DNA of 64,000 nucleotides from Bradyrhizobium sp. NP1 (GTDB lineage: Bacteria > Pseudomonadota > Alphaproteobacteria > Rhizobiales > Xanthobacteraceae): assembly GCF_030378205.1 (NCBI RefSeq), contig NZ_CP127385.1, forward strand, positions 5,868,001 through 5,932,000. The letters run 5' to 3'. Of this stretch, positions 3,267 to 58,678 are shown piece by piece. Numbering within the stretch: position 1 is the stretch's first letter; each line of letters begins with the position of its first letter. The notes beneath the pieces were generated by a model. The model saw nothing but the letters and a program-made list of their open reading frames with translations, did no database searches and had not been told where the DNA came from. Both the position numbers and the translations under genes were made by a program.

Positions 3267-3272
3267 GGTCGC

Positions 3273-4058: not shown

Positions 4059-4075
4059 GATATTGGCTTCCTCAA

Positions 4076-4095: not shown

Positions 4096-4154
4096 ACACC
4101 GCGGCGTGCTGAAGACAAGGTTGAGATCACGCCCTTGAGGTCAGGAGGAATGAG

Positions 4155-42090: not shown

Positions 42091-43146
42091 GTGCCATCCG
42101 CTGTTCCGCAACCGGTCGTCGCGCAGCTCACGCGGACCGCCATCTTTCTTGTGCTCACAATCGACCCCGAACCCCGATGTGATACCGTCGTGCGGGCCTT
42201 GTGTGGTGACTTGGCCGCCCTGCTGCGCGCGGTAGGCTTCCGCGACCTCGAGGGCCGGCTGTCATGCGTCATGGGATTTGGCTCCGACGCATGGGACCGG
42301 CTTTTCGGAGAACCGAAGCCAAAGGGATTGCATCCATTCCGTGAGATCCATGGTCAGCATCACGCCGTCGCGACACCGGGCGACATTCTCTTTCATATCC
42401 GCTCCACGCGAATGGATCTGTGCTTCGAGCTGGCGACCCAAATCATGTCGCGGCTCGACGGCGCAGTCTCGGTCGTGGATGAGGTGCATGGCTTCAAATA
42501 TTTCGATGACCGGGACCTGATCGGTTTTGTCGACGGAACGGAGAACCCCGTGGATCAGGCGGCCCTCGACGCCACCGTCATCGGCGAGGAGGATGCCGCG
42601 TTCGCGGGCGGCAGCTACGTCATCGTGCAAAAATATCTTCACGACGTGAAGCGATGGAACGAGCTGCCTGTCGAGATGCAGGAAAAGATCATCGGCCGGA
42701 CCAAACTGGCCGACATCGAGCTTGACGATTCGGTGAAGCCGACCTCGGCACACAACGCCTTGACGACGATCATCGAAGACGGAAAGCAGCTCGAGATCGT
42801 ACGCGACAACATGCCGTTCGGCGATGTCGGAAAGGGTGAGTTCGGCACCTATTTCATCGGTTACGCCCGATTGCCGCACAGGATCGAGCAGATGCTCGTG
42901 AACATGTTCGTCGGTCGGCCGCCAGGCAACTACGACCGGCTGCTCGATTTCAGCCGTGCCGTCACGGGCACGCTGTTCTTTGTGCCGTCGGCGACGTTCC
43001 TGGAGGATGTTGCATCCGGGGACGCTGCATCGCCTGCCGACCCGTCGGCGGACGGACGCAGGACCGACGACACGTCTCAAACGAAAATGCCGCCCGATGG
43101 CTCGCTCGGGATCGGCTCGCTGAAAGGAGAGGCTGGACATGAATAA
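42091..43146 (+). CDS. Dye-decolorizing peroxidase with encapsulin-targeting peptide
   Basis: A 351-residue haem peroxidase from a GTG start preceded by AAGGAGC. The DyP signature GFVDGTENP (145-153) includes the catalytic aspartate Asp148. His221 (TSAHNAL) is the likely haem ligand and Arg238, just before NMPFG, the distal arginine; GTYFIGYAR follows. After a flexible Asp/Ala/Pro-rich linker (about 306-335) the tail reads DGSLGIGSLKG, the consensus peptide that docks cargo to the inside of encapsulin shells. Five further residues (EAGHE) follow it. The stop overlaps the encapsulin start by 8 bases. It reduces peroxides inside the nanocompartment; the organic substrate is unknown. Confidence 0.95.
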   Translation: MPSAVPQPVVAQLTRTAIFLVLTIDPEPRCDTVVRALCGDLAALLRAVGFRDLEGRLSCVMGFGSDAWDRLFGEPKPKGLHPFREIHGQHHAVATPGDILFHIRSTRMDLCFELATQIMSRLDGAVSVVDEVHGFKYFDDRDLIGFVDGTENPVDQAALDATVIGEEDAAFAGGSYVIVQKYLHDVKRWNELPVEMQEKIIGRTKLADIELDDSVKPTSAHNALTTIIEDGKQLEIVRDNMPFGDVGKGEFGTYFIGYARLPHRIEQMLVNMFVGRPPGNYDRLLDFSRAVTGTLFFVPSATFLEDVASGDAASPADPSADGRRTDDTSQTKMPPDGSLGIGSLKGEAGHE

Positions 43147-43942
43147 CCTTCATCGGGGACTCGCCCCCATCTCGGACGCGGCATGGGCCCAGATCGAGGA
43201 GGAAGCCTCCCGCACCCTCAAGCGTCACCTGGCGGCGCGCCGTGTCGTGGACGTCGAAGGCCCGAAGGGCACGGATTTCTCCGCCGTCGGCACCGGTCAC
43301 CAGCGGCAGATCGAGGCGCCCGGCGAGGGAATCCAGGCCGCGCAGCGCGACGTCAAGGCGCTCGTCGAATTGCGCGTCCCCTTCGAGCTCACGCGCCAGG
43401 CCATCGACGATGTCGAGCGTGGCGCCAACGATTCTGACTGGGATCCGCTCAAGGAAGCGGCGCGCAAGATCGCCTTCGCCGAAGATCGAGCGATTTTCGA
43501 TGGCTACGGCGCCGCCGGGATCGTGGGCATCCGTCAGGGCAGCAGCAACCCGGTGCTGACACTTCCGTCCAACGTGCAGGATTATCCCGGCGTGGTCGCG
43601 CAGGCGGTGAGCCAGTTGCGGCTGGCGGGCGTCAACGGACCTTATACGCTGCTGCTCGGCACGGAGCCCTACACCGCGATTGGCGGCTCGAGCGACGACG
43701 GGTATCCGATCCTGCAGCACGTCCAGCGCCTCGTGGACGGCAAGATCATCTGGGCGCCGGCTATCGAGGGCGGCGTCGTCCTCAGCACCCGCGGTGGCGA
43801 TTTTGAGCTGGCCATCGGCCAGGACATCTCGATCGGCTATCTGAGTCATTCCGAGACGGCCGTCCGACTCTACTTCCAGGAATCCATCACCTTTCTGCTG
43901 TTGACGACCGAGGCCGTTGTGTCGCTCGCGCCGCAAACGTGA
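43139..43942 (+). CDS. enc: Family 1 encapsulin shell protein
   Basis: A 267-residue encapsulin with the HK97-type capsid fold. Characteristic segments are the N-terminal LAPISDAAWAQIEEEASRTL, RVVDVEGPKGTDFSAV, QRDVKALVELRVPFEL, WDPLKEAARKIAFAEDRAIF, and the C-terminal GYLSHSETAVRLYFQESITF. The length fits the T=1 (60-mer) class, which makes shells of roughly 24 nm. The cargo peroxidase is encoded immediately upstream and translationally coupled, so packaging of DyP is strongly implied. The shell would sequester peroxide chemistry under oxidative stress. Confidence 0.96.
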   Translation: MNNLHRGLAPISDAAWAQIEEEASRTLKRHLAARRVVDVEGPKGTDFSAVGTGHQRQIEAPGEGIQAAQRDVKALVELRVPFELTRQAIDDVERGANDSDWDPLKEAARKIAFAEDRAIFDGYGAAGIVGIRQGSSNPVLTLPSNVQDYPGVVAQAVSQLRLAGVNGPYTLLLGTEPYTAIGGSSDDGYPILQHVQRLVDGKIIWAPAIEGGVVLSTRGGDFELAIGQDISIGYLSHSETAVRLYFQESITFLLLTTEAVVSLAPQT

Positions 43943-44320: not shown

Positions 44321-45034
44321 TCAGAGCGTGCCTAAATAGGAGTGCTTGATCCGCTCGTCCGTCAAGAGTTGCGCCGCCGGCCCCTGAACGGGAATGCTGC
44401 CCTCGTCCAGGACATATGAGTAATCGGAGATCGGCAGGGTTCGATAGGCGTTTTGTTCGACCAGGAGCACGGCCACGCCTGATCGATGGATAGCCTGGAT
44501 CACGTCCAGAATTCGATCGATTATCTTCGGCGCCAGGCCCAGGCTCGGCTCGTCCAGCAGCAACATCCGCGGTCTCGACATCAGAGCGCGACCGATCGCC
44601 AGCATCTGCTGCTGGCCGCCGCTAAGCGTGCTCGCCCGCTGCTTCCTCTTGACGGTCAGCTCCGGAAAAAGGTCGAAAATCTCGGGCAAGCGCCGCATGG
44701 CGTCCTGCCTGCTCCCCCGCGTGTAAGCCCCCATCACCAAATTTTCGTCCACCGTCATTTCGGGGAAGAGCTGCCTGTGCTCGGGAACGAGCGACAACCC
44801 GGCTTCCACGATCTCCCAAGCCGCCATCCGGGTGAGTTCAATCCCCTCGAATTGAATGGTTCCGGCAAGCGGCCTGATCAATCCAGCAATCGTCGCCAAT
44901 GCGGTGGTCTTGCCTGCGCCGTTTGCTCCAAGCAGCGTGACGATCGTCCTTGCTTCCACGTTCAACGATATCTCGCGCAACGCTACTGCGCTTCCATATG
45001 CGACCTTCAGCTTCCGCACCGAAAGGAGACTCAA
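44321..45034 (-). CDS. livF: Branched-chain amino acid-type ABC transporter ATP-binding protein LivF
   Basis: A 237-residue ATPase of the LivF type. Walker A is GANGAGKTTA, the signature motif LSGGQQQMLAIGRAL, Walker B LLLDEPSLGLAP, and the switch histidine region lies near VEQNAYRTL. The start is a TTG at 45034 overlapping the livG stop (TTGA), preceded by GGAGG. It is the last gene of the seven-gene operon and powers import with LivG. The two amidohydrolase-like genes at the operon head suggest the cargo is not a simple amino acid. Confidence 0.94.
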   Translation of the reverse strand: MSLLSVRKLKVAYGSAVALREISLNVEARTIVTLLGANGAGKTTALATIAGLIRPLAGTIQFEGIELTRMAAWEIVEAGLSLVPEHRQLFPEMTVDENLVMGAYTRGSRQDAMRRLPEIFDLFPELTVKRKQRASTLSGGQQQMLAIGRALMSRPRMLLLDEPSLGLAPKIIDRILDVIQAIHRSGVAVLLVEQNAYRTLPISDYSYVLDEGSIPVQGPAAQLLTDERIKHSYLGTL

Positions 45035-45798
45035 TTCGATCCTCCCAAATAGGCCGCAATAACCGCAGGATCTTCAACGACGACCTTGGGAGGTCCGCTG
45101 GCGATCTTAACTCCATGGTCCAGCACGGCTATCTGATCGGAAAGATTCATCACCAACTTCATGGTGTGGGCCACGAGTATGATCGTCGGCGACAGCCGCT
45201 GCCTTATTGACCTGATGGTTTCCGTCAGTCGCTCGACCTCTTCCGAGCTCATCCCGGCGGACGGCTCGTCGAGAAACATCAATCGGGGTCGGTTGACGAC
45301 GCAACGCGCCAATTCGAGGAGGCGCTGGTGGCCAAGCGGGAGGGAGCCTGCCTGAAGATTGCAGTAAGATTGCAATCCGACCAGCTCAAGTGCGTCGAAT
45401 GCGCGTTCGCGCATCAAGCGGTCTTCAAATCGCTCCCGACCGACCGCCGTCGATAGATAGTTCGTGGCGAATGAGGAGTGCAGGCCCAGAAGAACGTTCT
45501 CCAGCACGGACATGTCTTTCAGGAGCAGCACGTTCTGGAACGTCCGCGCGATGCCTGCCCGGGCCAGCTCGTGCGGTCGCTTCGCAAACAAATCGCTCCC
45601 GAAGAATACGGCTTGGCCGCCCTGCGCCTCGTAGTGTCTCGTAAGAACATTGATCAGGCTGGTCTTGCCGGCTCCGTTGGGACCGATCAACGAGAACAGT
45701 TCACCGTCATTGATCGACAGGCTTACATTGCTCAATACGCGGTTTCCGCCAAAGGAAAGGCAGACATCGACTATTTTGAGAGCGGATATTGTGGCCAT
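45031..45798 (-). CDS. livG: Branched-chain amino acid-type ABC transporter ATP-binding protein LivG
   Basis: A 255-residue ATPase from the ATG at 45798 (MATISALKIVDVCLSFGG); the frame is open to 45840 inside livM. Walker A is GPNGAGKTSL. The signature motif is diverged: SLPLGHQRLLELARC in place of LSxGQ. Walker B is LMFLDEPSAGMS, followed by ILVAHTMKLVM with the switch histidine. The C-terminal extension typical of LivG is present (KVVVEDPAVIAAYLG). It heterodimerises with LivF on the LivH/LivM membrane pair. Confidence 0.93.
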   Translation of the reverse strand: MATISALKIVDVCLSFGGNRVLSNVSLSINDGELFSLIGPNGAGKTSLINVLTRHYEAQGGQAVFFGSDLFAKRPHELARAGIARTFQNVLLLKDMSVLENVLLGLHSSFATNYLSTAVGRERFEDRLMRERAFDALELVGLQSYCNLQAGSLPLGHQRLLELARCVVNRPRLMFLDEPSAGMSSEEVERLTETIRSIRQRLSPTIILVAHTMKLVMNLSDQIAVLDHGVKIASGPPKVVVEDPAVIAAYLGGSN

Positions 45799-45808
45799 CT
45801 GCAAACTT

Positions 45809-46828
45809 TCAACGGCGCAAGCGTCCGACGCCGCGACCAATCAAAGGCGCGATGCCCTCAGGCATCACGATGAGAAAAATCAAAAGCAGCGAACCGAACA
45901 CGAGCTCCTTGTACTCGGCGACCGGACGAAGCAACTCGGGAAGCACGGTCAGCAGCGACGCTCCGAACACGGGCCCCCAGAAGACCCCGAGCCCTCCAAC
46001 CACGCTCATCGTCAGATATGCGATCGATACCTCGAACGAAAACGCATAGGGATTGATGAAATCCGAGACTCCCACGTACAGCGACCCGGAAAGCCCGCCG
46101 AACAGCGCGCCAAGCGCGAAGGCCGCTATCTTGTATCGCGCCACCGGAATACCCATCGATTCGGCGGCAGCCTCGTTGCCCTTCAGTGCCAGCAACGCCC
46201 TGCCAAAACGGGAAGACAGCAGGTTCCAGGAAATCCAGAGCGCACAAAGGAAGGCCCCGATGAGAAAATAGTACATGAGGACCGGTTGCACCTCGTGACC
46301 AAACACCTGTATCGGGGGCACCGCCAATCCGTTAGGTCCCCGCGTCAGCTCCAGCCAGTTCATCAGCACCAGGTTGACCGCTTGCCCGAAGCCGAATGTG
46401 ATCATCGCGATATAGAGCGAGCTCAGCCTGAGCGATGGAATGGCAATGATGATGCCACACGTGGCAGCGATTGCTGAGGCCAACAGGATGGCGAGGAAGT
46501 AAGACACGCCGAGATGGGTCATGAGCAGGACGGTTGCGTAAGCTCCGATGGCCGCGAAGCCGGCGTGACCCACGGAGACCAGGCCCGCATAACCCATGCT
46601 GATGTTGATGCCGGTGGCGGCAACGCAGTTGATCAACGCAAGCCCGACCACAAAGCCGAAGTACGGGCCGGCCAGAGCAGGGACGGCAGCGAGCAATGCG
46701 CAAATAACCACGCCGAACAACAACTTTCCTTTTGACATCGCCCGAACCGTTTTTGCGGATCGCCCCGGTTCTTTCGACTTTTCAGGAAAAGAATGTTCCG
46801 ACCCGCGGCTCAAGCTGCTGGAAATCAT
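45809..46828 (-). CDS. livM: Branched-chain amino acid-type ABC transporter permease LivM
   Basis: A 339-residue inner-membrane permease with about ten hydrophobic segments. Signatures include GINISMGYAGLVSVGHAGFAAIGAY and the cytoplasmic coupling loop RFGRALLALKGNEAAAESMGI. The ATG at 46828 lies just after the livH stop; a methionine at 46738 (MSKGKLLF) is an alternative that drops a polar 30-residue leader. The same frame stays open far upstream through livH, but that part is not coding. It forms the channel with LivH. Confidence 0.93.
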   Translation of the reverse strand: MISSSLSRGSEHSFPEKSKEPGRSAKTVRAMSKGKLLFGVVICALLAAVPALAGPYFGFVVGLALINCVAATGINISMGYAGLVSVGHAGFAAIGAYATVLLMTHLGVSYFLAILLASAIAATCGIIIAIPSLRLSSLYIAMITFGFGQAVNLVLMNWLELTRGPNGLAVPPIQVFGHEVQPVLMYYFLIGAFLCALWISWNLLSSRFGRALLALKGNEAAAESMGIPVARYKIAAFALGALFGGLSGSLYVGVSDFINPYAFSFEVSIAYLTMSVVGGLGVFWGPVFGASLLTVLPELLRPVAEYKELVFGSLLLIFLIVMPEGIAPLIGRGVGRLRR

Positions 46829-46830
46829 CT

Positions 46831-47709
46831 CTAGACCCTCGAGACCGTCGCTTTTCCGAAAATTCCATTCGGCAACGCCGCGAGCACACCAAGCAGCAGG
46901 ACGAATACGACGACGTCCTTGAAAGCGCTGGTCACGTACACGCCGACGATTATCTCGACGACGCCGAGGATGAACCCGCCGGCGGCGGCGCCGCCCAGAC
47001 TGCTGAAGCCGCCAAGTATGGCCGCGATGAATCCCTTGTTTCCGATGACGCCCATGTCCGGCGTGACAATGATCATCGGAGCAAGCAGGACGCCGCCGAT
47101 GGCCGCAAGCGCTCCGGCCATCGCCCACGTCGCAGACAACACGGTCGGCACGTTTACTCCGACGATCGCAGCACCTCGCAAGTTCTGCGAAGTCGCGCGC
47201 ATACCCCAGCCGAGCTTGGCCAGGGAAAAGAACGCGGCGACCGCAATGAGCGTCGCGGCGGCAACACCGAGAATGCCGAGCTGGAGCGGCGTGACCCTCA
47301 CCCCGAGCAGGTCGATCTGCTCCGTGCTCAATACAGGTGGCAGGATAGAGACCTCCTGCCCATAGAAGACGCGCACGCCGCTTCTGAGAATCTGGCCGAT
47401 TGCCACGGTCGAGAGCAGAACGGTGAAGTGAGGCGCGTCGATCAGCGGCCGAAAGGCGATCCTCTCGACCAAATAGCCAAGCAGCGTACAAAGCCCGACG
47501 GCAAGCAGCAGCGCGGCGACCTGGCCGAGATGGAAGTCCCTGAGAGAGACCAGCGCCGCCATTGCGCCGATCATCATCATGTCGCCCTGCGCAAAATTGA
47601 CGACACCTGAAGCCCGGTAGATGGTCGCAAAACCCAGGGCGGTGAGAGCATAGATCGAGCCCAAGGTGAGGCCGCTGACCAGGAGCTGTGCAAAACCCAC
47701 GGCATTCAT
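46831..47709 (-). CDS. livH: Branched-chain amino acid-type ABC transporter permease LivH
   Basis: A 292-residue permease from the ATG at 47709, which overlaps the binding-protein stop (ATGA). It shows the LivH opening QLLVSGLTLGSIYALTALGF, GVVNFAQGDMMMIGA and the coupling loop GMRATSQNLRGAAIVGVN, with eight to nine membrane segments. It pairs with LivM, encoded 2 bases downstream. Confidence 0.94.
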   Translation of the reverse strand: MNAVGFAQLLVSGLTLGSIYALTALGFATIYRASGVVNFAQGDMMMIGAMAALVSLRDFHLGQVAALLLAVGLCTLLGYLVERIAFRPLIDAPHFTVLLSTVAIGQILRSGVRVFYGQEVSILPPVLSTEQIDLLGVRVTPLQLGILGVAAATLIAVAAFFSLAKLGWGMRATSQNLRGAAIVGVNVPTVLSATWAMAGALAAIGGVLLAPMIIVTPDMGVIGNKGFIAAILGGFSSLGGAAAGGFILGVVEIIVGVYVTSAFKDVVVFVLLLGVLAALPNGIFGKATVSRV

Positions 47710-48917
47710 TGCGCCACCTCCCACGCCAGGCCGGCATTGATCCTGATCATCGTCGCGGCCGCTGTTCCTTCATGCGAGGCCTTGCTGTAGGTCACGGGGA
47801 ACATCACGCCGGTGCGAAAGTCGTTGAGGGTTTCAAGCGCCTCGATGAATTTCGCCCGCGTAAGAGAGCGCCCGGCCCGGCTCAGCCCCTCCGCAAATAT
47901 CTTTATGGCCGCGTAGCCCGCGAAGTCGTATTCGGACGGCCGGCCCGGCGGAAGTCCGCCCGGATATTTCGACCTGAGGGCACTCCGGTATTTCACGATT
48001 TCCGCGTTCGTTGAATCGTCGGCCAGGAACGGCGCGAACGTAACCGCGATAAAGCCTTCACCCGACTGGCCTGCGGCCTTCGGAAACAAGGGCGTGGCCG
48101 TTCCCGCGCCGCCAAACAGCGGCACTTTCAAGCCAAGGTCCTTGGCCTGGCGCGTGATGACGCCGGCTTCCGCCGCGAATGCCCAGACGTACAGGGCGTC
48201 GGCGCCAGACTGAGCGATCCTCAAGAGCTGGGCTGAGAAGTCCTGATCACCCTGGTTGAACCTTTCGCTCGCTTTGAGAGCGATGTTCGACTTTCCCAAC
48301 CACTCTCGAACCGCTTCCTCACCGCCGATGCCGTAGTCGTTGCTGGTGTAGATCAGCGCCGGCTGCTTCACGCCGAATTTCTTGACGGTGTATTCGAGGA
48401 GACGATCGGCATGCGCGATCTCGTTGGAGAATACGCGAAAGACATTGTCGCGCGGCGGGACGAGCAGATTGCGGTTGGACGAAATCGACGCCAGGAAAGG
48501 AACCTTTTCCCGCCCGATGAGCGGCAGAACCGGCAACGTGCTGCCGCTCGTCGAACCCGCGATCAGGCCGAAGACGCGATCCTGGCTGAGGAGCCGTCTG
48601 ACGCTCGCCTGAGCCTCTTGCGGTGACCCGGCATCGTCGTACACCACCAGCCTCAGTTTTCGTCCGTTGATTCCACCCGCCGCGTTGATCTCATCGATTC
48701 CGATTTGAATCGCGTCCCGCTCGGATGTTCCGAGTAGCGACGTTGACCCGGTTAACGGCGTCCACATGCCCAGAACGACCTCGTTGTCGGAGACCCCGAT
48801 CTCCTGACACCTCGCCTGGGTCGCCGCGGCGACCATCGTCAGGGACGCCAGCAAGAGAGACAGCACCGACGACCATGAAAAGATCGCGCTAACCTTTCGA
48901 AGACCGATGTCACTCAC
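47706..48917 (-). CDS. ABC transporter substrate-binding protein (Leu/Ile/Val-binding type)
   Basis: A 403-residue periplasmic binding protein. A GTG start at 48917 overlaps the amidohydrolase stop and follows GGAGGG; an ATG at 48929 is an alternative. The signal peptide (VSAIFSWSSVLSLLLASLTMV) ends near ARCQE. The mature protein has the LivJ-like opening VVLGMWTPLTGSTSLLG, the typical AIQIGIDEINAAGGINGRKL, and YTSNDYGIGGEEAVREW. Genes for both permeases and both ATPases follow, so this is a complete importer. Upstream amidohydrolase genes suggest a ring amine or amide as ligand (inference). Confidence 0.94.
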   Translation of the reverse strand: MSDIGLRKVSAIFSWSSVLSLLLASLTMVAAATQARCQEIGVSDNEVVLGMWTPLTGSTSLLGTSERDAIQIGIDEINAAGGINGRKLRLVVYDDAGSPQEAQASVRRLLSQDRVFGLIAGSTSGSTLPVLPLIGREKVPFLASISSNRNLLVPPRDNVFRVFSNEIAHADRLLEYTVKKFGVKQPALIYTSNDYGIGGEEAVREWLGKSNIALKASERFNQGDQDFSAQLLRIAQSGADALYVWAFAAEAGVITRQAKDLGLKVPLFGGAGTATPLFPKAAGQSGEGFIAVTFAPFLADDSTNAEIVKYRSALRSKYPGGLPPGRPSEYDFAGYAAIKIFAEGLSRAGRSLTRAKFIEALETLNDFRTGVMFPVTYSKASHEGTAAATMIRINAGLAWEVAQ

Positions 48918-50326
48918 ACGACCCTCCATCTCGGCTGGGAATGTCTGGATAGTTTGCTTCTCTCCGCAACGGCCGAGGCGCGCGCCTGGCCCTCCTGCAA
49001 AAGCGCCCCCTCGTCCATCGAGGTCAGCTTTCCCCTTTCGAGCAGAATCCGGCCATCGACCAACACTGTGTCGGCCCCGCCGCGCGTGCTGAAAGCGAGG
49101 TTCGCAAGGGGATCGTGCAGCGGCACCCAATCACTCTGATTGACACCGAACAACGCGATATCGGCCTTCTTGCCTGCTTCGAGCGAGCCGATTTCCTTGT
49201 CGATGCCGAGCGCTTTGGCGGCCCGAATCGTCGCCATCTCCAATGCCAATTCGGGCGGCGTAATCGTCGCGTCCAGCCTGAACGACATGCTGCCGCCGCA
49301 AAACAGAAAGAGCTGCCGCAGCAGGTCGGTGTGATTGCTGGCCATCGCGGAGAAGCTGCCGAGCAGGACATTGACGCCGAAAGCGACGAGCTCCGGATAG
49401 CGGCCATATTCCAGCGATCCGGTACCGAGCCTGTGCGAGGCTGACGGCGTGCAAACGACGTGAGCGGCAGCATCGCGCAGCCTGACCATGTCAGTCGGAC
49501 TGGACCAGCCGGCGTTCGAGATCAAAAGCCTGTCGCCGAGCAATCCGGCCGCGTCGAGACGCTCGACCTCGGTGCGAAAGTGCTCCCGGCGGGATGCGAC
49601 GGCGTCGTCACGGCAGAAGGCCGCACCTGCCAATGTGATTGCGCCGGTCGTGGCGGCAAGTCTCGCCATTCCTCGGCAAAGGTCGTCGCTGCACGCCGGA
49701 AGCCAGGGCAGAGCCAGGGCCGGCCGGACACGAGACGACCCCAGCGCCTGAATTTCGAGAACGGCGCGTTGGGCGTTTTCAATTTCTTCGACGCAATCCG
49801 TCGCTCCGATCGGCGCCTCACCAAAAAACGTATCGGTCACGTCAGAGCAAGAACGTGAAACGAATGCCCGGATCCCCAGGGAGGCCGCAGCGCCTGCGAC
49901 CTGTCCATAAAAGCGGCTGCCCGCGTCCACGAAGCACGTCGTACCCGCATGAACCATTTCAACCTGGCTCAGGAGGGATGCCGCGAATGCGTCTTCGGGA
50001 GACAGCGCCGCCTCGTAGGGCAGCCGACGACCGAGATGGTATTCATACATGTCGCAGGCGTCAGCCAGACCACGGCCAAGATGGTGACTGCTGTTGACGC
50101 AGCAGTCGACGATGCCCGGCAGCGCGAGCAGCCCGCGTCCGTCGATGGTTTTCTCGGCCTCGATGGAATGATCCAGATCCTCGGATTTCCCGATTGCCAC
50201 GATCCGGTCGCGGTCAACCGCAATCGATGCGCTCTTCACGATTTCACGGGAAGCGTTGACCGTTACGGCCCAGTCCACGCCCTTGATGAGGACGGAACAG
50301 CGCGGCAAACCATCTCTCGCGCTCAT
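48914..50326 (-). CDS. Amidohydrolase-fold protein without metal ligands (probable pseudoenzyme)
   Basis: A 470-residue paralogue of the next gene, with the fold of cytosine/8-oxoguanine/triazine deaminases: an N-terminal beta-sandwich (CSVLIKGVDWAVTV), barrel, and C-terminal SLEAGKKADIALFGV. All usual metal positions are changed. The HxH after beta-1 reads Cys76-Val-Asn78 (IVDCCVNSS). The beta-5 His/Glu become Gly and Phe (LAGAAFC), the beta-6 His region reads SNAGWSS, and the beta-8 Asp region reads GSFSAMASN. It therefore probably does not catalyse metal-dependent hydrolysis, and may be a structural or regulatory subunit of its paralogue. It overlaps both neighbours by 4 bases. Confidence 0.85.
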   Translation of the reverse strand: MSARDGLPRCSVLIKGVDWAVTVNASREIVKSASIAVDRDRIVAIGKSEDLDHSIEAEKTIDGRGLLALPGIVDCCVNSSHHLGRGLADACDMYEYHLGRRLPYEAALSPEDAFAASLLSQVEMVHAGTTCFVDAGSRFYGQVAGAAASLGIRAFVSRSCSDVTDTFFGEAPIGATDCVEEIENAQRAVLEIQALGSSRVRPALALPWLPACSDDLCRGMARLAATTGAITLAGAAFCRDDAVASRREHFRTEVERLDAAGLLGDRLLISNAGWSSPTDMVRLRDAAAHVVCTPSASHRLGTGSLEYGRYPELVAFGVNVLLGSFSAMASNHTDLLRQLFLFCGGSMSFRLDATITPPELALEMATIRAAKALGIDKEIGSLEAGKKADIALFGVNQSDWVPLHDPLANLAFSTRGGADTVLVDGRILLERGKLTSMDEGALLQEGQARASAVAERSKLSRHSQPRWRVV

Positions 50327-51720
50327 CTGACGCTCCAGTGCGGCCTGTGGATCCGATCGAGGCCAGAGCGCTCTGCGATCGCGAGGCCCCGCATCTGGCC
50401 TTCGCGAATTGTCTCCTCTTCAGAGAAGGCAGTAATTTCGCCCTCCCGCATGAGCAGGCGGCCATCGACGAACACGTAATTTGCGCCGCCGCGGGAACTG
50501 TGCACGAGATTTGAGAGGGGGTTGTGGACCGGGCACCATTCAGATGTCCGCGTGTCGAACAGGACCAGGTCGGCTTTCTTGCCGACTTCAAGGGATCCAA
50601 TCTCATCCTGCATCCCGACGGCGACGGCGCCATTGATCGTTGCCATTTCGATCATCTGCTCCGGGGGAAAGATGAAAGGACTTATCCGTGTTGATCTCAT
50701 CATGCCCGCGCCGAGCCCCATCACGCGCACCAGGTCGAGGTGGTTGCTCGACATTGCCGCATTCCCGCCGAGCGCCACGGTCACGCCAAGCGCAGCAAAT
50801 TCCGGGAAATGGCCGAAGGTCGCGTCACCCAGAGCAATTCGATAGCCGGTGGTCGGGGTATATGAGATCTTGAAGCCGCGCTTCTGGGCGAGCGCTATCT
50901 CATTTGGATTGGCCCAGCCCATTTGGATCATCACCATGTCGGGGCCAAGGACATCGAGCGCTTCCATGCGTTCGATATCGGTGAGGCCGCTGGTCCGTCG
51001 CGATCCGACGCTTTGATCGTGAGATTCACAGCAATGCGTGACGATGCCGACCTTGTGCTTGTCAGCCAGGCGGCGGATGCCCTTGCAAAGGGCATCGGAA
51101 CAGCCGACCGGTATGCGTATCGAGAGCCAGGCCCGAACGCGGCCGCCGTGCGCATTCTTGTATGTGACGACGGTTTCTTCAGCCCGATCGAGCGCTTCTT
51201 CGGTGCTCTCGCGGAACAGCGGCCTTCGCGGCAGCTTTCCGATTTTCGTATTCTGAATGTCGAAGGCGGTTCGCGAAACGAAGCCGCGCATGCCGGAGTC
51301 GCCGGTGGCGCGTGCCGTCTCGTCGGGATAGTAGCTGCTCGGATCGAGAAAGCATGTGGTGCCGGATCGAATCAATTCGAGCTGACACAGGCGCGCCGCC
51401 CAGTAGGCGTCTTCGGCAGTCATCACCGACTCGTAGGCGTAGAGACGCTCCAGAAGCAGGACGGGCATGTCGCATCCGTCGCCAAGCCCCCTGCCGAGAT
51501 GCTGGGTGTTGTGAACGTGGGTGTCGATGAAACCCGGCAGCGCAATGTGGCCGCTGCCGTCAATGACCTCATCCGCCTGGTAGTCGGGCGGCAGGTCCTC
51601 CGCCTTTCCGACGAATTCCAGCCTGTCGTCGGCGATGCCAACCGCGCCGTGCCTATAGATTGTCCTTCCGGCATCGACGGTTATCAGCCAGTCTACATTC
51701 TTGATCAGAACGCGCCCCAT
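50323..51720 (-). CDS. Amidohydrolase family protein (deaminase-like) with incomplete metal site
   Basis: About 465 residues from the ATG at 51720, preceded by GGGAGAG; the frame is open to a TTG at 51738. The sequence resembles 8-oxoguanine/cytosine/s-triazine deaminases. HxH is intact (DTHVHNTQHLGRGL, His68/His70) and His229/Glu232 of beta-5 are present (VTHCCES). However, the third histidine is replaced by Gln266 (MIQMGWANPNEI) and the catalytic Asp of beta-8 by Asn320 (LGGNAAMSSNH). Activity is therefore doubtful or of a new type. It heads the operon and overlaps the paralogue by 4 bases; the Liv importer follows. Confidence 0.88.
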   Translation of the reverse strand: MGRVLIKNVDWLITVDAGRTIYRHGAVGIADDRLEFVGKAEDLPPDYQADEVIDGSGHIALPGFIDTHVHNTQHLGRGLGDGCDMPVLLLERLYAYESVMTAEDAYWAARLCQLELIRSGTTCFLDPSSYYPDETARATGDSGMRGFVSRTAFDIQNTKIGKLPRRPLFRESTEEALDRAEETVVTYKNAHGGRVRAWLSIRIPVGCSDALCKGIRRLADKHKVGIVTHCCESHDQSVGSRRTSGLTDIERMEALDVLGPDMVMIQMGWANPNEIALAQKRGFKISYTPTTGYRIALGDATFGHFPEFAALGVTVALGGNAAMSSNHLDLVRVMGLGAGMMRSTRISPFIFPPEQMIEMATINGAVAVGMQDEIGSLEVGKKADLVLFDTRTSEWCPVHNPLSNLVHSSRGGANYVFVDGRLLMREGEITAFSEEETIREGQMRGLAIAERSGLDRIHRPHWSVR

Positions 51721-51741
51721 GGGGTTTCGCTCTCCCAACTC

Positions 51742-51758
51742 ATTCTATTTGTTAGAAT
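51742..51758. promoter_or_regulatory. Inverted repeat upstream of the amidohydrolase-liv operon
   Basis: ATTCTA (51742-51747) and TAGAAT (51753-51758) flank 5 bases. It lies between the divergent GntR gene and the operon, where an operator is expected. The arms resemble those of the TetR motif at 4076, 7118 and 10378, but the spacing is 3 bases shorter, so it may belong to the local GntR regulator instead. Confidence 0.45.
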
Positions 51759-51854
51759 GACCGTAAGATGGCAAGAATTGGCTGTCAAGAGGACGATTTG
51801 CGCTGGGCCGAATGATCCCGTACGTAACTTGACGGAGCGAACCCTGAACGAGCC

Positions 51855-52664
51855 ATGCGGACAGCAGAAAAGAAGTCGCAGCTAAACGCGCCGCTGTATC
51901 AGCAAGTCGCCGCTGAGTTTCGCCGCCGATTGGAGACCGCGGTCTGGGTGCCGGGCGCGCGCATTCCCAGCATCGACGCGCTCCAGGAAGAGTTTTCGGT
52001 CGCCGGCGTGACGATCCGGCAAGCGATAGAATCGCTTGAATCCGAAGGACTGCTGAAACGATACCAGGGCAAGGGAACGTTCGTATCCGGCGACGTTCAG
52101 GCGCGACGCTGGCTGAAAGTAGCCACGACATGGCGCTCTCAATTGGAGACGATCAAGGACGTCGTTCCCAATTTCATTGAGACGTCGGATCCTCCCAAGT
52201 CACCGAGACTGGCCAGCACCGAAGGCCGCCCGGCCGCGGACTACATCTATCTGAAGAGCGTGCAGTCGAGAGACGGATCCCCTTACGCATTGGTCAGCTT
52301 GCACCTGGCGAAATCGATCTTTGATCAGGATCCGAAGGCCTTTCGCAGTCGGGCAGCAATGGCCGCGCTGGTCGAGATGCCCGGCGTTTCCATCAAGAGA
52401 ACGCGTCAAACCATCATCATCGGAAAGGCCGATGCCGCCACGGCCGTGCGGTTGGGGCTCGCGTTGGACGCGCCTGTGGTCGAGGCCAGGTGGATCATTA
52501 CCGATCAGGATGACGTCGCGATCTACGTCGCCGAGATAGTCTATCGCGGCGATCTCATTCGCTTCGAGATCGAGCTTCCCGCGCCCGACGATGACCTGGA
52601 CCTTCGGCGTGCAGGGACTTCGCGACGATCCGGCTCTAAGAACAGTGGTCGCCGGCGAGCCTAG
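51855..52664 (+). CDS. GntR family regulator, HutC subfamily (UTRA domain)
   Basis: A 269-residue regulator. The winged HTH (residues 10-80) reads APLYQQVAAEFRRRLE and GVTIRQAIESLESEGLL, ending RYQGKGTFVSG. A UTRA effector domain follows (SPYALVSLHLAKSIFD, then VEARWIITDQDDVAIYVAEIVYRGD). HutC-type regulators sense small nitrogenous or sugar ligands. It is divergent from the amidohydrolase-liv operon and is its likely regulator. The C-terminus converges on the first peptide-type binding protein gene. Confidence 0.93.
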   Translation: MRTAEKKSQLNAPLYQQVAAEFRRRLETAVWVPGARIPSIDALQEEFSVAGVTIRQAIESLESEGLLKRYQGKGTFVSGDVQARRWLKVATTWRSQLETIKDVVPNFIETSDPPKSPRLASTEGRPAADYIYLKSVQSRDGSPYALVSLHLAKSIFDQDPKAFRSRAAMAALVEMPGVSIKRTRQTIIIGKADAATAVRLGLALDAPVVEARWIITDQDDVAIYVAEIVYRGDLIRFEIELPAPDDDLDLRRAGTSRRSGSKNSGRRRA

Positions 52665-52751: not shown

Positions 52752-54302
52752 TCATTTCCAGTGGATTGTGCGCAGATCATAGAACGCGTAGCCTTGTTGA
52801 GGCACCCATTCGATCTGGCTGTCCATCGCAAAGACGGAGAACAGCTCGGAAATCAGAACGGCATGCCCGTCATCGCGCATGATCCGTGCGATCTTGCGGA
52901 ACAGCTTGTCGCGCTCGGCGGGATCCTCAACCGAGTTCGTCTGTTCGATCAGCGCATCAACTTCGGGATTGTGGTAGTCTGACCAGGTGCCCTTCTTGGC
53001 TGCGGTGCCGAAGATCGCAGTGATCGGATCATAGATCGCGTTCGAATACTGCATGACGGTCATCGGCCCGGACGCGTGCGTATTGTTGAGCCGATTCCAC
53101 GCTGGATAGTCCAGTATCTTGATCTTTGCGCGCACGCCGATGGCCTGCCAGTAGCCGGCGACCGCATCGGTGACATCCTTCGGATAGGAGTTCGGGCTCA
53201 GAAGTTCAGTTTCGAAACCGCGTGGATAGCCTGCATCGGCAAGAAGCTTTCGCGCCTGCGTCGGGTCGTATGGATACGGCTTCAGATCCGGATCGACGCC
53301 CACGGGATAGTAGGCCGAGATGAAAGACGTCAGAGGTTTGCCGATGCCATGTTGAACATGCTTGATGATGGCGTCGACATCGATCGCGTAGTTCAATGCA
53401 AGGCGCACTCGCTTGTCGGCCAGCGGCGTGTTCGGCACGTTCGAATAGAGACGAATGTGCAGCGGACTCCCGGCCGGTACGAGGACAACCGAGAGACCGG
53501 CCGTGCTTTTGATCTGCTTCACGTCGCTCGGTGCGATCATGTCGGCCACATCAACCTCGCCGGCGCGCAGCGCGTTCAGACGGCTTGATGCGTCGGGGAT
53601 GTACCGAAAAATCAGATGCTTGATCGCCGGCTTGGCGCCATAATACGCGTCGTGGCGCTCGAGCTCGAGAGACTGTCCGATCTGGTGCGAGACAAGCTTG
53701 TAGGGACCAGCGCCGACCGGCGCCCTGGCGAAAGCCTCGACCGACGGCAACGACTCCAGATATGCCTTCGGCACCAGAGCGACGAAAGCCGCCACCTTGT
53801 TCAGGAATACGACGTCGCGTTGCTTGAGCTTGACGTTGACGGTCGCGGGATCAATGACGTCGACCCGGTCGATGATGTCGGCAAGATAAGGCCGCCGCGT
53901 ACTCTTGATTGCCGGGTCCAGGATCCGATCGAAGGAGAATTTCACGTCTTCGGCAGTCAGTTTGGCTCCGTTGTGAAAGATGACGTCCTGTCGGATGGTG
54001 AATCTATAGTCGAGACCGTCGTCGGAAACCTTCACGTCTTTGGCGACCTGAGGGATCAGTTTGCCCTGTTTGTCGAACGTGTAAAGATTGTCGAACATCT
54101 GCCAGGCATAACGATCGGAATTTCCGGTGTTGTCGACCTGCGCATCGAGCATCGCGATATCGCGACCGATAGCGATGACGATCGTGTCCTTGTCGACCGC
54201 CGGCCTCCCGCCAATCGCCGTGGACGGCGTAGCACCGAGCACGACACCGAAAAGAGCGAGGGCAACGATCGCGACACGCGATCCACGTTTATTCGCCCAC
54301 AT
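52752..54302 (-). CDS. Peptide/opine/nickel-type ABC substrate-binding protein, paralogue 1
   Basis: A 516-residue SBP_bac_5 protein. The signal peptide (VAIVALALFGVVLGATPSTA) is followed by a mature start IGGRPAVDKDTIVIAIG. It has the family segments DNLYTFDKQGKLIPQVA, FHNGAKLTAEDVKFSFDRIL and PVGAGPYKLVSH, and ends YDLRTIHWK. It is closely similar to the proteins at 60532 and 62962. It is the last gene of the run on this strand, after the LLM and acyl-CoA-dehydrogenase-like enzymes. It supplies ligand to the Dpp-like permeases; the ligand is unknown. Confidence 0.94.
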   Translation of the reverse strand: MWANKRGSRVAIVALALFGVVLGATPSTAIGGRPAVDKDTIVIAIGRDIAMLDAQVDNTGNSDRYAWQMFDNLYTFDKQGKLIPQVAKDVKVSDDGLDYRFTIRQDVIFHNGAKLTAEDVKFSFDRILDPAIKSTRRPYLADIIDRVDVIDPATVNVKLKQRDVVFLNKVAAFVALVPKAYLESLPSVEAFARAPVGAGPYKLVSHQIGQSLELERHDAYYGAKPAIKHLIFRYIPDASSRLNALRAGEVDVADMIAPSDVKQIKSTAGLSVVLVPAGSPLHIRLYSNVPNTPLADKRVRLALNYAIDVDAIIKHVQHGIGKPLTSFISAYYPVGVDPDLKPYPYDPTQARKLLADAGYPRGFETELLSPNSYPKDVTDAVAGYWQAIGVRAKIKILDYPAWNRLNNTHASGPMTVMQYSNAIYDPITAIFGTAAKKGTWSDYHNPEVDALIEQTNSVEDPAERDKLFRKIARIMRDDGHAVLISELFSVFAMDSQIEWVPQQGYAFYDLRTIHWK

Positions 54303-54353
54303 CGTCGTTCCTCACATGCTGCCGTTGGTTTGAATTCTCGACCGACAAAATGA

Positions 54354-55412
54354 CTATGCGTTCTTCGCTCGCAGCAACGGCAGCACCAAGCGGCCAAAGC
54401 GCTCCGCCTCCTCGTCGTGGAGATAGCCCGACAGGCAGAAGGAATGGCAGCCAACGTCGATGAACTTCTGCAGCGTGTCGGCGCACTGCCGGGGATCGCC
54501 GACAACTGCGATGCCTGCACCGGGGCGCACTTTGGTGATGCCGGTCCACAGATGGGGGATGATGAGGTCCTGACTGGAGAGTTCCTGCATCCGACGGTTC
54601 GCCACCGAATTCTGGAAACGACCGGCGATATCCTTGCGGAATTCGGCATCCGCGTGACGAATGAGTTGGTCGGCAGCCGCCCAGGCGTCTTCCTCGCGCT
54701 CGCGGCAGATGATTTGCAGGCGCATGCCGAATCCGATCTGGTCAGCCCGCCCATACTTTGCCGCGAGCTGTCGAATCTGGCTCATATTCTCGGCCACCCG
54801 GTCCGGGTGATCGCCCCAGAAGAGATGGACGTCCGCGTGCTTGGCCGAGATCTCCCACGCTTCTTTCGAGCCACCTCCCAGATAGAATTTCGGATACGGC
54901 TTCTGAAGGACGGGCGGAATGACCTGAACGCCCTTGAGCTTGTAGAATCGCCCGTCATAGTCGATCGGCGCGTCGGCTTTCCACAAGGCCTTGAGGATGC
55001 TGACTTCCTCATCCATCAGCAGATAGCGGTCGTTTTTGCTGTAGGGTAGCCCGTCGGCGGCATATTGCTCGTCGCTCAGACCGGCGATCAGATTGATACA
55101 AATCCGCCCACCGGAGAGCTGATCGAATGTCGAGATCATCTTTGCCAGCAGCACCGGATTGATGTAGCCGGGTCGGGCCGCGATCAGCGGCTTTATCGAT
55201 TTGGTTCGGGCCGCCATCATCGCGCCCGTGATCCAGGCTTCCCAGCAATGGACGTTGACCGGAATCAGCAGGTACTCGAAACCAGCGCGCTCCGCACTGA
55301 GCGACACGCGGTCGAAAGCGTCGATCGATGGCGGCACGGATGCACCCGGATCTCCGTAGGCCGTCGTGTCACCTTGCGTGGGAATGAACCAGCCCAGCTC
55401 GATTTTTCGCAT
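54354..55412 (-). CDS. LLM class flavin-dependent oxidoreductase (SsuD-like)
   Basis: A 352-residue bacterial-luciferase-like TIM barrel from the ATG at 55412 (MRKIELGWFIPTQGD), preceded by GGAGGAGG. Segments FEYLLIPVNVHCWEAW, KMISTFDQLSGGRICINLIAG, KFYLGGGSKEAWEISAKHADV and GVHLFWGD-like text fit alkanesulfonate monooxygenase relatives, which use reduced FMN and oxygen. No flavin reductase gene is nearby, so reduced flavin must come from elsewhere. It is linked to the flavin monooxygenase-like gene upstream and to the importer; it may desulfonate or oxidise the imported compound. Confidence 0.9.
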   Translation of the reverse strand: MRKIELGWFIPTQGDTTAYGDPGASVPPSIDAFDRVSLSAERAGFEYLLIPVNVHCWEAWITGAMMAARTKSIKPLIAARPGYINPVLLAKMISTFDQLSGGRICINLIAGLSDEQYAADGLPYSKNDRYLLMDEEVSILKALWKADAPIDYDGRFYKLKGVQVIPPVLQKPYPKFYLGGGSKEAWEISAKHADVHLFWGDHPDRVAENMSQIRQLAAKYGRADQIGFGMRLQIICREREEDAWAAADQLIRHADAEFRKDIAGRFQNSVANRRMQELSSQDLIIPHLWTGITKVRPGAGIAVVGDPRQCADTLQKFIDVGCHSFCLSGYLHDEEAERFGRLVLPLLRAKNA

Positions 55413-55535
55413 CGCCCGACAAACCTCCTCCATAGACCACCCAGTGAATCCGCTCGACGATCGTCGCGGTGCCGAGCCCGCCATCCGCAGCAGGTGTTGC
55501 GGAGGCGGCGTAATCCGCCTCCGCTGAAACGCGCG

Positions 55536-56708
55536 TCAGCGCTGCAGGGTCGAATCGAAGCTTTCTCCCAGTTCGGACTGGCCGATGATCTGCGCCGTGC
55601 GGTCGTGGCCCGCATGCAGGACGTGGGTTTCCAGGTCGCGCAGATAACGGCTGAGCGGGAACTCGTCGAACAGAGCGGTCGAGCCAGCTGCGTGGATAAT
55701 CTTGTGGGAGAGTTCGAAGGCCACATGCGCCGCCGTCGACTTGGCCGCCATGGATGCAAGCTCCGCCTCGACGACCGGTTTCGTCTTCCAGCACGCGATG
55801 GCGTGATGGAAGATCGCCCGCGCCGCCTCGAGCTGGATCTTCATTTCGCCGGTTCGCATCTGGGTGATGCCGTCCCGACCGCGGCCGCGCTTGCGCATGT
55901 AGTCGAGGTACCAATCGTACATGCCCTCGGTCGCGCCCAGATAGGTGGCCGCGAATCCGAGGTGGAATTTCCCCTGCCAGCGCTGACGCGGATACGTGCC
56001 CGGTTCACCGAGGAACTGGTCTTCGGTCACGAAAACGTTGTCGAGTGTAATGATCGATGATGGAGCCGCCCGCATCCCGTTCGGCCGATACCAGGCGTGA
56101 TCCATCGAGACACCCTCCATACCCGGCTCGATGATGATCATCTGGTGATTTTGGTTGTAGTCCTCGGTTCCGGCGAGGGCGACGAAGATGATTGCGAAGT
56201 CCATCGTCGGCGCATTGGTGGCGTAGTTCTTCTCGCCGTTGATGACCCATCCGCCATCGACCTTCTTGGCGGTCGTATTCATCATATACATATGCTTGCG
56301 CTTGGCTTCGCTGCCGACGAACGAGCCCAGGAACGAACGCTCCCGCATGGGCTCAAGATAGCGCTTCTTCTGGCTCTTCGTGCCGATGGCTTCCAGGCAC
56401 CAGGCGGTGTGATTGGTCACCTGAACACAATGCGCGGTGCCGGGGCAGCCCTGCGCGATGCTGCGCTGGGCCTGCAGATAGGTCGCCGGATCGTCGGTAT
56501 CGAGATTGCTGCCGCGACCTCCGCGTTCCTTCGACAGGGTGGTGCGTAGCCAGCCACCCTGGTGAAGTTCCCTGATGTTCTCGACCGGCATGTCGCAATT
56601 GGCATCGTAGGCGCGCCCGCGCTCGCGAAACTTGGTCGTCGCGAGTTCGCGCAGCGCCGTCATCTCCGCGGTATGCAGGGCTGCTTCCGGATCAATCGGG
56701 CGTTCCAT
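55536..56708 (-). CDS. Acyl-CoA dehydrogenase-fold flavin enzyme (DszC/SfnC-like monooxygenase type)
   Basis: About 390 residues from the ATG at 56708, preceded by AAAGGA; a start at 56729 inside the ATPase gene is less likely. The fold is that of acyl-CoA dehydrogenases (HQGGWLRTTLSKERGGRG, VDGGWVINGEKNYATNA, FELSHKIIHAAGSTALFDEF). The C-terminal HAGHDRTAQIIGQSELG fits group D flavin monooxygenases. The usual catalytic glutamate of dehydrogenases is not evident. With the LLM enzyme downstream it suggests oxygen-dependent attack on a sulfur- or nitrogen-containing compound. The function is inferred from class and context. Confidence 0.85.
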   Translation of the reverse strand: MERPIDPEAALHTAEMTALRELATTKFRERGRAYDANCDMPVENIRELHQGGWLRTTLSKERGGRGSNLDTDDPATYLQAQRSIAQGCPGTAHCVQVTNHTAWCLEAIGTKSQKKRYLEPMRERSFLGSFVGSEAKRKHMYMMNTTAKKVDGGWVINGEKNYATNAPTMDFAIIFVALAGTEDYNQNHQMIIIEPGMEGVSMDHAWYRPNGMRAAPSSIITLDNVFVTEDQFLGEPGTYPRQRWQGKFHLGFAATYLGATEGMYDWYLDYMRKRGRGRDGITQMRTGEMKIQLEAARAIFHHAIACWKTKPVVEAELASMAAKSTAAHVAFELSHKIIHAAGSTALFDEFPLSRYLRDLETHVLHAGHDRTAQIIGQSELGESFDSTLQR

Positions 56709-56721
56709 CGGGCGATTCCTT

Positions 56722-57699
56722 TCAAGCATTATTGGTCTCCAGGCGGATCGTTTCGGCGAAATGGCAGGCGACGAGGTGATCAGGCTCCAGCCGGCGCAGG
56801 GATGGCGGCTCCAGGCGGCAGCGATCGCGGGCGAAAGGACAGCGAGTGTGGAAGACGCAGCCTGAGGGCGGGGACAGCGGCGAGGGTATCTCCCCGGAAA
56901 CCGGAGCTGCGTTGACGTCCGGCGTGGCGGAGGCGATCAGGGCCAGACTGTAGGGATGCCGCGCGTCGGAGAGGATCGTCTCCTTCGATCCGACTTCGAC
57001 AAAGCGCCCCAGATAAAGCACGCCTATCTGCGTGCTCATGAAGCCAATGACGGCGAGGTCGTGTGAAATCAGGAGATAGGTCAGCCCCAGTCGGTCCTGC
57101 AAATCGCGGAGCAAATTCAGGATCTGAGCCTGAATCGACACGTCGAGCGCCGAAACCGGTTCGTCCAGGACGAGGAGACGCGGCTCGAGCGCGAGAGCTC
57201 GCGCAATCGCCACACGCTGGCGCTGTCCTCCCGACATCTCGTTCGGATAGCACCGCGCCACGCTCTGCGGCAGGCCGACCGCGTCGAGGAGGTAGGCGAC
57301 CCGTTCCGCCCGCGCCGCTTTGCTCGGATAAGTGCGATGGATTCGAAGCGGCTCATCGATGATGCGATCGACCCGCATGCGCGGACTGAGCGCGCTGTAG
57401 GGGTCCTGCAGCACCGGCTGCAGCAAGCGGCGGAACGCAAAGCGTTCCGCCCTGTCGTGCCCGGCAATGTCGCGACCATCGATGACGATCTCACCCGATG
57501 TCGGCTCGTCGGCTCCCATGACCATCTTTGCGGTCGTCGTTTTGCCGGAGCCGGATTCGCCCACCAGGCCGAAGGTCGTTCCGGCGGGCACGTCGAACGA
57601 AATCCCGGCGACGGCGTGCAGAATCTCCGCCTTCCCGAACAGGCCGCGGGAGATCGGAAACGTCTTTCGCAAATCTCGAACCGAGAGGAAGGCGCTCAT
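56722..57699 (-). CDS. Dipeptide/oligopeptide-type ABC transporter ATP-binding protein (DppF/OppF-like)
   Basis: A 325-residue ATPase from the ATG at 57699 (MSAFLSVRDLRKTFPIS), overlapping the next ATPase stop by 4 bases. Walker A is GESGSGKTTT, the signature MSGGQRQRVAIARAL, Walker B LLVLDEPVSALDVS and the switch region LLISHDLAVIGF. The C-terminal cysteine-rich oligopeptide/dipeptide tail (GCVFHTRCPFARDRC) can hold an iron-sulfur cluster in some relatives. It pairs with the DppD-like ATPase. Confidence 0.94.
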   Translation of the reverse strand: MSAFLSVRDLRKTFPISRGLFGKAEILHAVAGISFDVPAGTTFGLVGESGSGKTTTAKMVMGADEPTSGEIVIDGRDIAGHDRAERFAFRRLLQPVLQDPYSALSPRMRVDRIIDEPLRIHRTYPSKAARAERVAYLLDAVGLPQSVARCYPNEMSGGQRQRVAIARALALEPRLLVLDEPVSALDVSIQAQILNLLRDLQDRLGLTYLLISHDLAVIGFMSTQIGVLYLGRFVEVGSKETILSDARHPYSLALIASATPDVNAAPVSGEIPSPLSPPSGCVFHTRCPFARDRCRLEPPSLRRLEPDHLVACHFAETIRLETNNA

Positions 57700-58676
57700 C
57701 CGAGCACCTCGTCGGCATGCCAGCAGGCCGAGCGGCGCGTCTCGCCGGCCGTTGCCATCCAGTCGGGGTATTCCGTCCTGCACAATTCGGTCGCGCGCGG
57801 ACAGCGAGGTTCGAACCTGCACCCGGAGGGAAGCGCCGCAAGGGATGGAGGCTGGCCGGAGATCAGCGGAAGGCGATCTTCCTGCCTGCCGAGCTGAGGC
57901 AGCGCACGCAGCAGCCCTTCCGTATAGGGATGGGCTGGCCGGGCAAAGATCTCGGCCACCGGCCCCTGCTCGACGATCCGGCCCGCATACATGATCGCGA
58001 CCTCGTCACAGAAGCGCTGGACGGTGTGCAGGTCGTGCGTGACGAGAATGATCGCCATCCCGGTCTCACGCTGGAGATCGCGAAGCAGGGCCAGGATCTG
58101 CTGCTGCACCGTCACGTCGAGCGCAGTCGTCGGCTCGTCCGCGATCAGCAGCTTCGGTGCACAGGCGATGTTGAGCGCGATCGCGACGCGCTGGCGCATG
58201 CCGCCCGAAAATTCGTGCGGATAGGACCCGAGGCGCTTCTCCGCGGCCGGAATCTGCACCCGCGACAGCACGTCCACGACCTTGGGCCGTCGCGCGCGAC
58301 GCGACCGATCGCCGAGGTGATATTTGAAGACCTCTCCGACCTGATCCTCGACATCGAAGAGCGGGTTGAGGGAGGTCATCGGGTCTTGGACGATCATGCC
58401 GATCTTGCGGCCGCGAATGGCCTCCATCTCCGCCGGACTCTTGGTCAGGAGATCCTTGCCCTCGAACAGCACTCGGCCGCCCGCGATATGTCCGTTGCCG
58501 GGCAGAAGCCGCATGATGGAGGAGCACGTCATGCTCTTGCCGGAACCGGATTCGCCGACGAGGGCGAGCGTGCGGCCGGGCGGGACGGAGAAACTCACAT
58601 CGTCGACCGCCGTGACGATGCCGGATTCCGTGGCCAGCCAGGTGGTCAGATTCTCGACACGGAGAAGAGTGCTCAT
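57696..58676 (-). CDS. Dipeptide/oligopeptide-type ABC transporter ATP-binding protein (DppD/OppD-like)
   Basis: A 326-residue ATPase from the ATG at 58676, 2 bases after the permease stop. Walker A is GESGSGKSMTC, the signature FSGGMRQRVAIALN, Walker B LLIADEPTTALDVT and the switch ILVTHDLHTVQRF. The oligopeptide tail has GCRFEPRCPRATELC. The same reading frame remains open upstream across the permease gene, but without coding sense. It overlaps the DppF-like gene by 4 bases. Confidence 0.94.
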   Translation of the reverse strand: MSTLLRVENLTTWLATESGIVTAVDDVSFSVPPGRTLALVGESGSGKSMTCSSIMRLLPGNGHIAGGRVLFEGKDLLTKSPAEMEAIRGRKIGMIVQDPMTSLNPLFDVEDQVGEVFKYHLGDRSRRARRPKVVDVLSRVQIPAAEKRLGSYPHEFSGGMRQRVAIALNIACAPKLLIADEPTTALDVTVQQQILALLRDLQRETGMAIILVTHDLHTVQRFCDEVAIMYAGRIVEQGPVAEIFARPAHPYTEGLLRALPQLGRQEDRLPLISGQPPSLAALPSGCRFEPRCPRATELCRTEYPDWMATAGETRRSACWHADEVLG

Positions 58677-58678
58677 CT

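Follow-up and report, generated by a model that had tools for sequence, protein, structure and literature searches.

Tandem amidohydrolase paralogues, one with an altered and one without a metal site, at the head of a Liv-type importer operon in Bradyrhizobium sp. NP1

Introduction

The strand-8 Asp is treated as central to the amidohydrolase superfamily. What, then, might two adjacent and intact amidohydrolase genes be doing when neither product carries it? Such a pair lies on the minus strand of a 64,000-nucleotide stretch of the Bradyrhizobium sp. NP1 genome (NZ_CP127385.1, positions 5,868,001 to 5,932,000), the whole of which is called the window here. The first gene encodes P1 (465 aa, 50323..51720) and the second P2 (470 aa, 48914..50326), and both reading frames are intact over their full length. 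An earlier note on this DNA had described the pair as amidohydrolases with decayed metal sites, lost stepwise from P1 to P2.

The reading that we prefer, with a probability of about one half, is a heteromeric amidohydrolase in which P1 would be catalytic with a non-standard chemistry, P2 would be a metal-free partner, and the substrate would be brought in by the Liv-type importer that shares their operon. It is proposed because the site of P1 is retained and that of P2 lost, the two genes share one operon, and the solved relatives are dimeric. The pair is possibly a bacterial case of an enzyme depending on its own dead paralogue, and the group around P1 with Asn in place of the Asp (Asn-type), travelling with a metal-less paralogue (P2-type) and in one subgroup without the adjacent His as well, would be a natural experiment on the requirements of a zinc site. 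Judged by title, none of the papers listed in searches of the open-licence literature deals with such an Asn-type and metal-less pair.

Fold, family and active-site residues

P1 and P2 are 41% identical, and both carry the Amidohydrolase profile and a TIM-barrel fold. Structure prediction of each protein, a check proposed in the earlier note, yielded confident single-chain models (pLDDT 93.9 and 94.2) that match the structures of AtzA, TrzN and NatAM. PDB entries 6sj0 to 6sj2 are presumably NatAM, which fits the title of 6sj2. The nearest solved relatives in both sequence and fold are SAH/MTA/5'-deoxyadenosine deaminases and AtzA (4f0r, 4gbd, 4v1x). The genome is one contig of 7.7 Mb in which the only strong P1 matches are these two genes, the next match being 28% identical. 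Annotation as 8-oxoguanine deaminase (P1 186 bits, P2 133 bits; NCBIfam cut-off 532) or 5'-deoxyadenosine deaminase (265 and 197 bits; cut-off 522) was rejected, as the scores lie under the cut-offs; for SAH/MTA deaminase they were 115 and 85 bits (cut-off 779). The source databases give the name SAH/MTA deaminase to many of these relatives among the matches listed, and such names appear doubtful because of the residues at their sites.

At the site columns P1 carries His68, His70, His229, Glu232, Gln266 and Asn320, exactly as had been claimed, and also Ser128. The matching columns in P2 hold Cys76, Asn78, Gly234, Phe237, Asn271 and Phe325, so the claim that the second protein is without the family ligands stands as well. 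P1 therefore has the HxH on strand 1 and the His on strand 5, neither of which is present in P2, and the strand-6 His and strand-8 Asp are absent from both. The column assignment is backed by motif windows, by strand positions in the two confident models, with which it agrees, and by a HMMER alignment of P1 to AtzA that places Asn320 on Asp327 and Gln266 on His276 (AtzA numbering). Alignment error as a cause of the missing residues was ruled out by reading the motif windows. Migration of ligands, which the earlier note had named as a way in which its interpretation could fail, was also considered: P1 His327 is Phe or Tyr in 4 of 5 Asn-type and canonical rows shown, Cys75 and His81 of P2 are not common to the relatives displayed in the motif alignment, and no conserved ligand was found at other positions.

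The metal site of P1 is not decayed in the sense first proposed, since all three histidines that bind zinc in TrzN are retained. Read from this alignment, the changes in P1 are the replacement of the Asp and of the water-contacting His, with the zinc-binding histidines kept. TrzN appears to be the closest precedent for such a site. It has Thr325 at the Asp column and His274 at the His column, and it binds zinc and functions without the Asp, while His274 hydrogen-bonds the zinc water (accessible sections of PMC4356373). TrzN (PDB 3ls9, 4l9x) and P1 share the fold, the three-His zinc site with Glu, and the replaced last-strand Asp. They differ in that TrzN keeps His274 where P1 has Gln266, so that P1 is without a strand-6 His to contact the zinc water, and Foldseek identity is 21-22%. 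Unlike P1 with its neighbour P2, TrzN has no pseudoenzyme partner described in those sections of PMC4356373. AtzA has the full metal site (His66, His68, His243, His276 and Asp327) against Gln266 and Asn320 in P1, and the same 2015 paper, in its accessible sections, regarded the loss of the Asp in TrzN as unique among the structures considered (PMC4356373).

An Asn/Gln site might instead perform a new, perhaps non-hydrolytic chemistry such as ring closure or a lyase or transferase reaction. The structural neighbour NatAM makes a benzoxazole through reverse hydrolysis (accessible part of PMC7204872) and offers an example of this kind; however, Asp and His are retained in NatAM and no biosynthetic genes were recognised beside the pair, and we consider this explanation improbable.

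Conservation of the substitutions among relatives

Three protein searches (the best 120 each of 2116, 260 and 266 matches) gave 275 proteins together, of which 263 were aligned and 12 outside 400-510 aa left out, so that the groups described here are samples. Asn-type and canonical groups were chosen by motif, and P2-type proteins by their place in the search list and their clade in FastTree. Asn at the Asp column was found in at least 53 of the 263 aligned proteins, and all 53 have the three metal-binding His, the Glu and Ser128; no aligned protein with Asn at this column shows another site pattern among the matches listed. Canonical proteins with the motif HHHEHD number at least 112, with Gly128 in 100 of 112. 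This coupling of Asn320 with Ser128, as seen among the listed matches, argues for the heteromer with a catalytic P1. Among the 53 Asn-type matches listed, 38 still have His at position 266 and the other 15, with P1 among them, have Gln; loss of His266 in the window's group would remove a further catalytic residue and argues against the heteromer.

The P2-type group, with at least 79 aligned members, keeps the first His of the HxH in 4 and the second in 0 of 78, and among the matches listed 0 of 79 keep His229, Glu232 or the Asp, the Asp column being Gly in 77 of 79. The 266 column is His in 71 of the 79 listed, although P2 itself has Asn. In 78 listed sequences the group has fixed residues of its own: Pro207, Trp208, Asp279 and Gly301 without exception, and Thr302 and Leu305 nearly so. 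Pro207 replaces an Arg that is conserved among the matches listed, and Trp208 lies directly after a barrel strand in the model. Such residues point to constraint rather than drift, and, fixed as they are in groups of at least 53 and at least 79 aligned sequences, the residue losses are beyond what chance would produce. Relatives with identical substitutions, for which the earlier note had proposed a search, were found among the matches listed and are often linked; orthologous pairs with all ligands retained in both proteins, which it had regarded as fatal to its view, did not appear, as no aligned member of either group regained them.

If both proteins were non-catalytic, P1 would hold a metal and only bind or sequester a ligand, and the pair would serve uptake. 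The Asp is gone from all 53 Asn-type proteins among the matches listed, His266 is gone from the window's group, and a Liv-type importer lies downstream at both loci described below, all of which would suit such a role. However, catalysis is favoured by the retention of the three His and the Glu throughout the same 53 proteins, since a non-catalytic protein need not keep them, and we regard a purely binding pair as quite unlikely.

The order of the losses was assessed in two trees. In the better one (IQ-TREE, LG+C20, quick mode, 77 chosen rows) the Asn-type proteins form one clade inside the canonical enzymes (SH-aLRT 99), and the P2-type proteins form one clade (support 100, stem 1.41) that separates from the canonical enzymes at an earlier, open fork. 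With 214 rows, FastTree splits the Asn-type in two and places the P2-type as sister to the larger part (support 71). We trust IQ-TREE more, and on its topology each loss would be a single event; the joining point of the P2 clade is unsure because the two trees disagree and the stem is long. The proposed stepwise loss from P1 to P2 does not fit IQ-TREE, on which the P2-type branches before the Asn-type arises, though FastTree disagrees. A real step, as judged from the aligned columns, is found inside the P1 group, with Asn in all 53 proteins and then the change from His266 to Gln in 15.

Linkage and co-evolution of the pair

Equal sizes of the longest contigs were used as a sign of linkage. Asn-type and P2-type proteins (49 and 78 clusters listed) agree in 10 cases, where 0.31 would be expected from the local density of contig sizes, and among the matches listed on contigs of at least 4 kb there are 9 equal-size matches against 0.06 expected. 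By the same measure a 12,648-bp contig (Alphaproteobacteria bacterium) unites all three types, canonical, Asn-type and P2-type, and a 25,860-bp contig an Asn-type and a canonical one; among the sizes compared, canonical and P2-type proteins match only in the 12,648-bp trio. Among the matches listed with longest contigs of at least 20 kb, 3 of 8 Asn-type proteins have a size-matched P2-type, and 3 of 20 P2-type proteins (window excluded) have a size-matched Asn-type partner. On present counts the pairing therefore does not seem universal, and most long-contig P2-type proteins being without a matched partner argues against the heteromer, if weakly, as one contig is visible per cluster. The P2-type protein P0205 (69,075-bp contig), in which both HxH columns are gapped, is outside the lists used for the equal-size count. 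Two sets of P2-type twins also have equal longest contigs (P0187 and P0194, 2927 bp; P0131 and P0165, 4191 bp); tandem metal-less P2-type pairs may exist, or the equal sizes are due to chance.

Over 12 pairs, 10 of which are inferred from equal contig sizes, the distances within the two groups correlate (r 0.83, Mantel p 2e-4), and in these same pairs evolution is 1.57 times faster in the P2-type than in the Asn-type. The linkage and the mirrored distances both speak for the heteromer, but plain co-inheritance could yield them as well. Decaying paralogues heading for loss might be suspected from the faster rate and from the rarity of the pair in sampled genomes, yet the frames are free of stops, the full-length P2-type proteins among the matches listed share 47-59% identity with P2, and each type has its specific fixed residues. 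Decay is accordingly very improbable, and the earlier judgement that these are unlikely to be decaying genes is borne out by full-length frames and by losses fixed across large groups.

A further alternative is that P1 works on its own, as a homodimeric zinc enzyme with chemistry like that of TrzN, and that P2 is a separate cytoplasmic ligand binder, for instance a sensor, buffer or chaperone. The complete three-His site of P1 would permit this, and the new conserved residues of the P2-type, such as Trp208, together with the His kept at column 266 in most listed members, could belong to a ligand-binding site. Nevertheless, the genes of P1 and P2 overlap and their divergence is mirrored, and the solved relatives AtzA and TrzN are built from dimers, AtzA as a trimer of dimers and TrzN as a dimer (accessible sections of PMC4356373). 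We hold independent roles for the two proteins to be unlikely.

The operon and a second locus

On the minus strand the order of transcription is P1, P2, a periplasmic substrate-binding protein (Peripla_BP_6, 47706..48917), LivH (46831..47724), LivM (339 aa, 45809..46828, start taken at 46828), LivG (45031..45840) and LivF (44321..45034), ending at 44321. P1 and P2 overlap by four bases (ATGA), and P2 overlaps the binding-protein gene by GTGA, given a GTG start of the latter at 48917 (ATG at 48929 is an alternative). The genes overlap but, contrary to what had been stated, are not fused to the importer. These genes encode a Liv-type ABC importer, with the binding protein, LivH-like permease and LivG-like ATPase recognised by profile, the LivM-like permease by position and reading, and the LivF-like ATPase by position and by being 41% identical to its positional counterpart at the second locus; profile scores are below the curated cut-offs of leucine and urea systems. 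Upstream of P1 and divergent from it, a GntR/UTRA regulator found by profile scan (51855..52664, plus strand) starts 134 bp away. Between the two lies a candidate operator, a perfect 8-bp palindrome TCATTCTA-N5-TAGAATGA (51740..51760), with 1 zero-mismatch match in the window where 0.05 would be expected at up to 3 mismatches.

A second locus, L009, in a MAG titled Bordetella parapertussis, contains an Asn-type protein, a P2-type protein, a binding protein and Liv-type genes (named by position) in the same order as in the window. Identity between the loci is 71% for P1 and 55% for P2, compared with 24% for the binding protein, 25% for LivH, and 41% for both LivG and LivF. An order common to both loci despite the low importer identity is consistent with the heteromer. 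Since the binding protein and permease are so little alike, these comparisons suggest that the pair joined a Liv-type importer twice, and two separate meetings would tie the pair more firmly to uptake than the inheritance of a single operon would. Alternatively, a single ancestral importer may have diverged strongly, with ATPases that are still 41% identical.

Each locus has further genes of note. At L009, a molybdopterin oxidoreductase and a TRAP-type binding protein (1207-4514, minus strand) adjoin the pair and are transcribed away from it. In the window, a DyP-type peroxidase gene forms a cargo-shell pair with the encapsulin shell gene (PF04454) that comes after it, at 42091-43942 (plus strand). 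Positions 52752-60500 (minus strand) hold Opp/Dpp-like importer genes, an SsuD-like luciferase-family monooxygenase and an SfnB-like protein of the acyl-CoA-dehydrogenase fold, all with scores below curated cut-offs and with permeases and ATPases named by reading; this cluster resembles sulfur-scavenging clusters.

Proposed mechanism and comparison with known systems

In the preferred heteromer, P1 and P2 would form two halves of one amidohydrolase. One zinc would be held by His68, His70 and His229 of P1, with Glu232 as the likely proton donor, and P1 would turn over without the Asp/His pair, much as TrzN does without its Asp. P2, predicted to be fully folded, could fill the second position of the family's usual dimer, where it may stabilise or tune P1; NatAM is likewise built from dimers (accessible part of PMC7204872). 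The pair would probably act in the cytoplasm on a small nitrogen-containing compound brought in by the importer, and the GntR/UTRA regulator would control the operon. A more far-reaching form, in which a two-part, ancestrally perhaps three-part (canonical, Asn-type and metal-less) system has a zinc site that is active only as a heteromer and became associated with Liv-type importers on more than one occasion, is put forward tentatively, as somewhat doubtful.

Dead partners are known elsewhere. Pseudomonas ATCase requires pDHO, a catalytically dead dihydroorotase-like chain, and this amidohydrolase-fold partner is the likeness that we propose for P2; the active partner there is a transcarbamoylase, whereas P2 would serve a paralogue with which it shares 41% identity (accessible part of PMC7053772). 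In the trypanosome AdoMetDC/prozyme and deoxyhypusine synthase pairs, an impaired enzyme works with a dead paralogue. These belong to different enzyme families, and the heteromer has been demonstrated there, according to the accessible parts of both sources, while the pair described here is known from genes and single-chain models (PMC5201418, PMC3663545).

Distribution

Genome surveys used P0002 or P0155 as query with E limits from 1e-80 to 1e-95, in overlapping samples with some candidates per genome scored. Strong matches occurred in 1 of 242 genomes in a genus survey, 1 of 297 in an order survey, 1 of 385 in a class survey, 1 of 398 in a phylum survey and 1 of 1 in one further survey. Around G887, the MAG that contains L009, there were 6 of 98 in the family survey and 1 of 399 in the order survey; the other five matches in the family are 34-36% identical and keep the HxH in the printed frames. 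The phylum of a Chloroflexi MAG gave strong matches in 0 of 101 genomes sampled, and the plasmids and viral contigs searched gave no match to the pair. Strong survey matches being confined to the window's genome or G887, the gene context described above is drawn from two loci.

In a scan of named genome contigs the loci obtained were L009 and two others that are distant (29% and 35%). The genome of the window has another three amidohydrolase genes in tandem at L025 (2565-6757; G000:C1, ~2.015-2.019 Mb), where they follow the genes of an ABC ATPase and a permease and face a LacI-like regulator named by reading. A Ser or Thr that a quick alignment had placed at the Asp column of this trio was dropped, as an Asp is visible by eye near the last-strand site. 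The trio keeps the HxH and the strand-5 His and has Lys or Arg at the position of Glu232 in P1.
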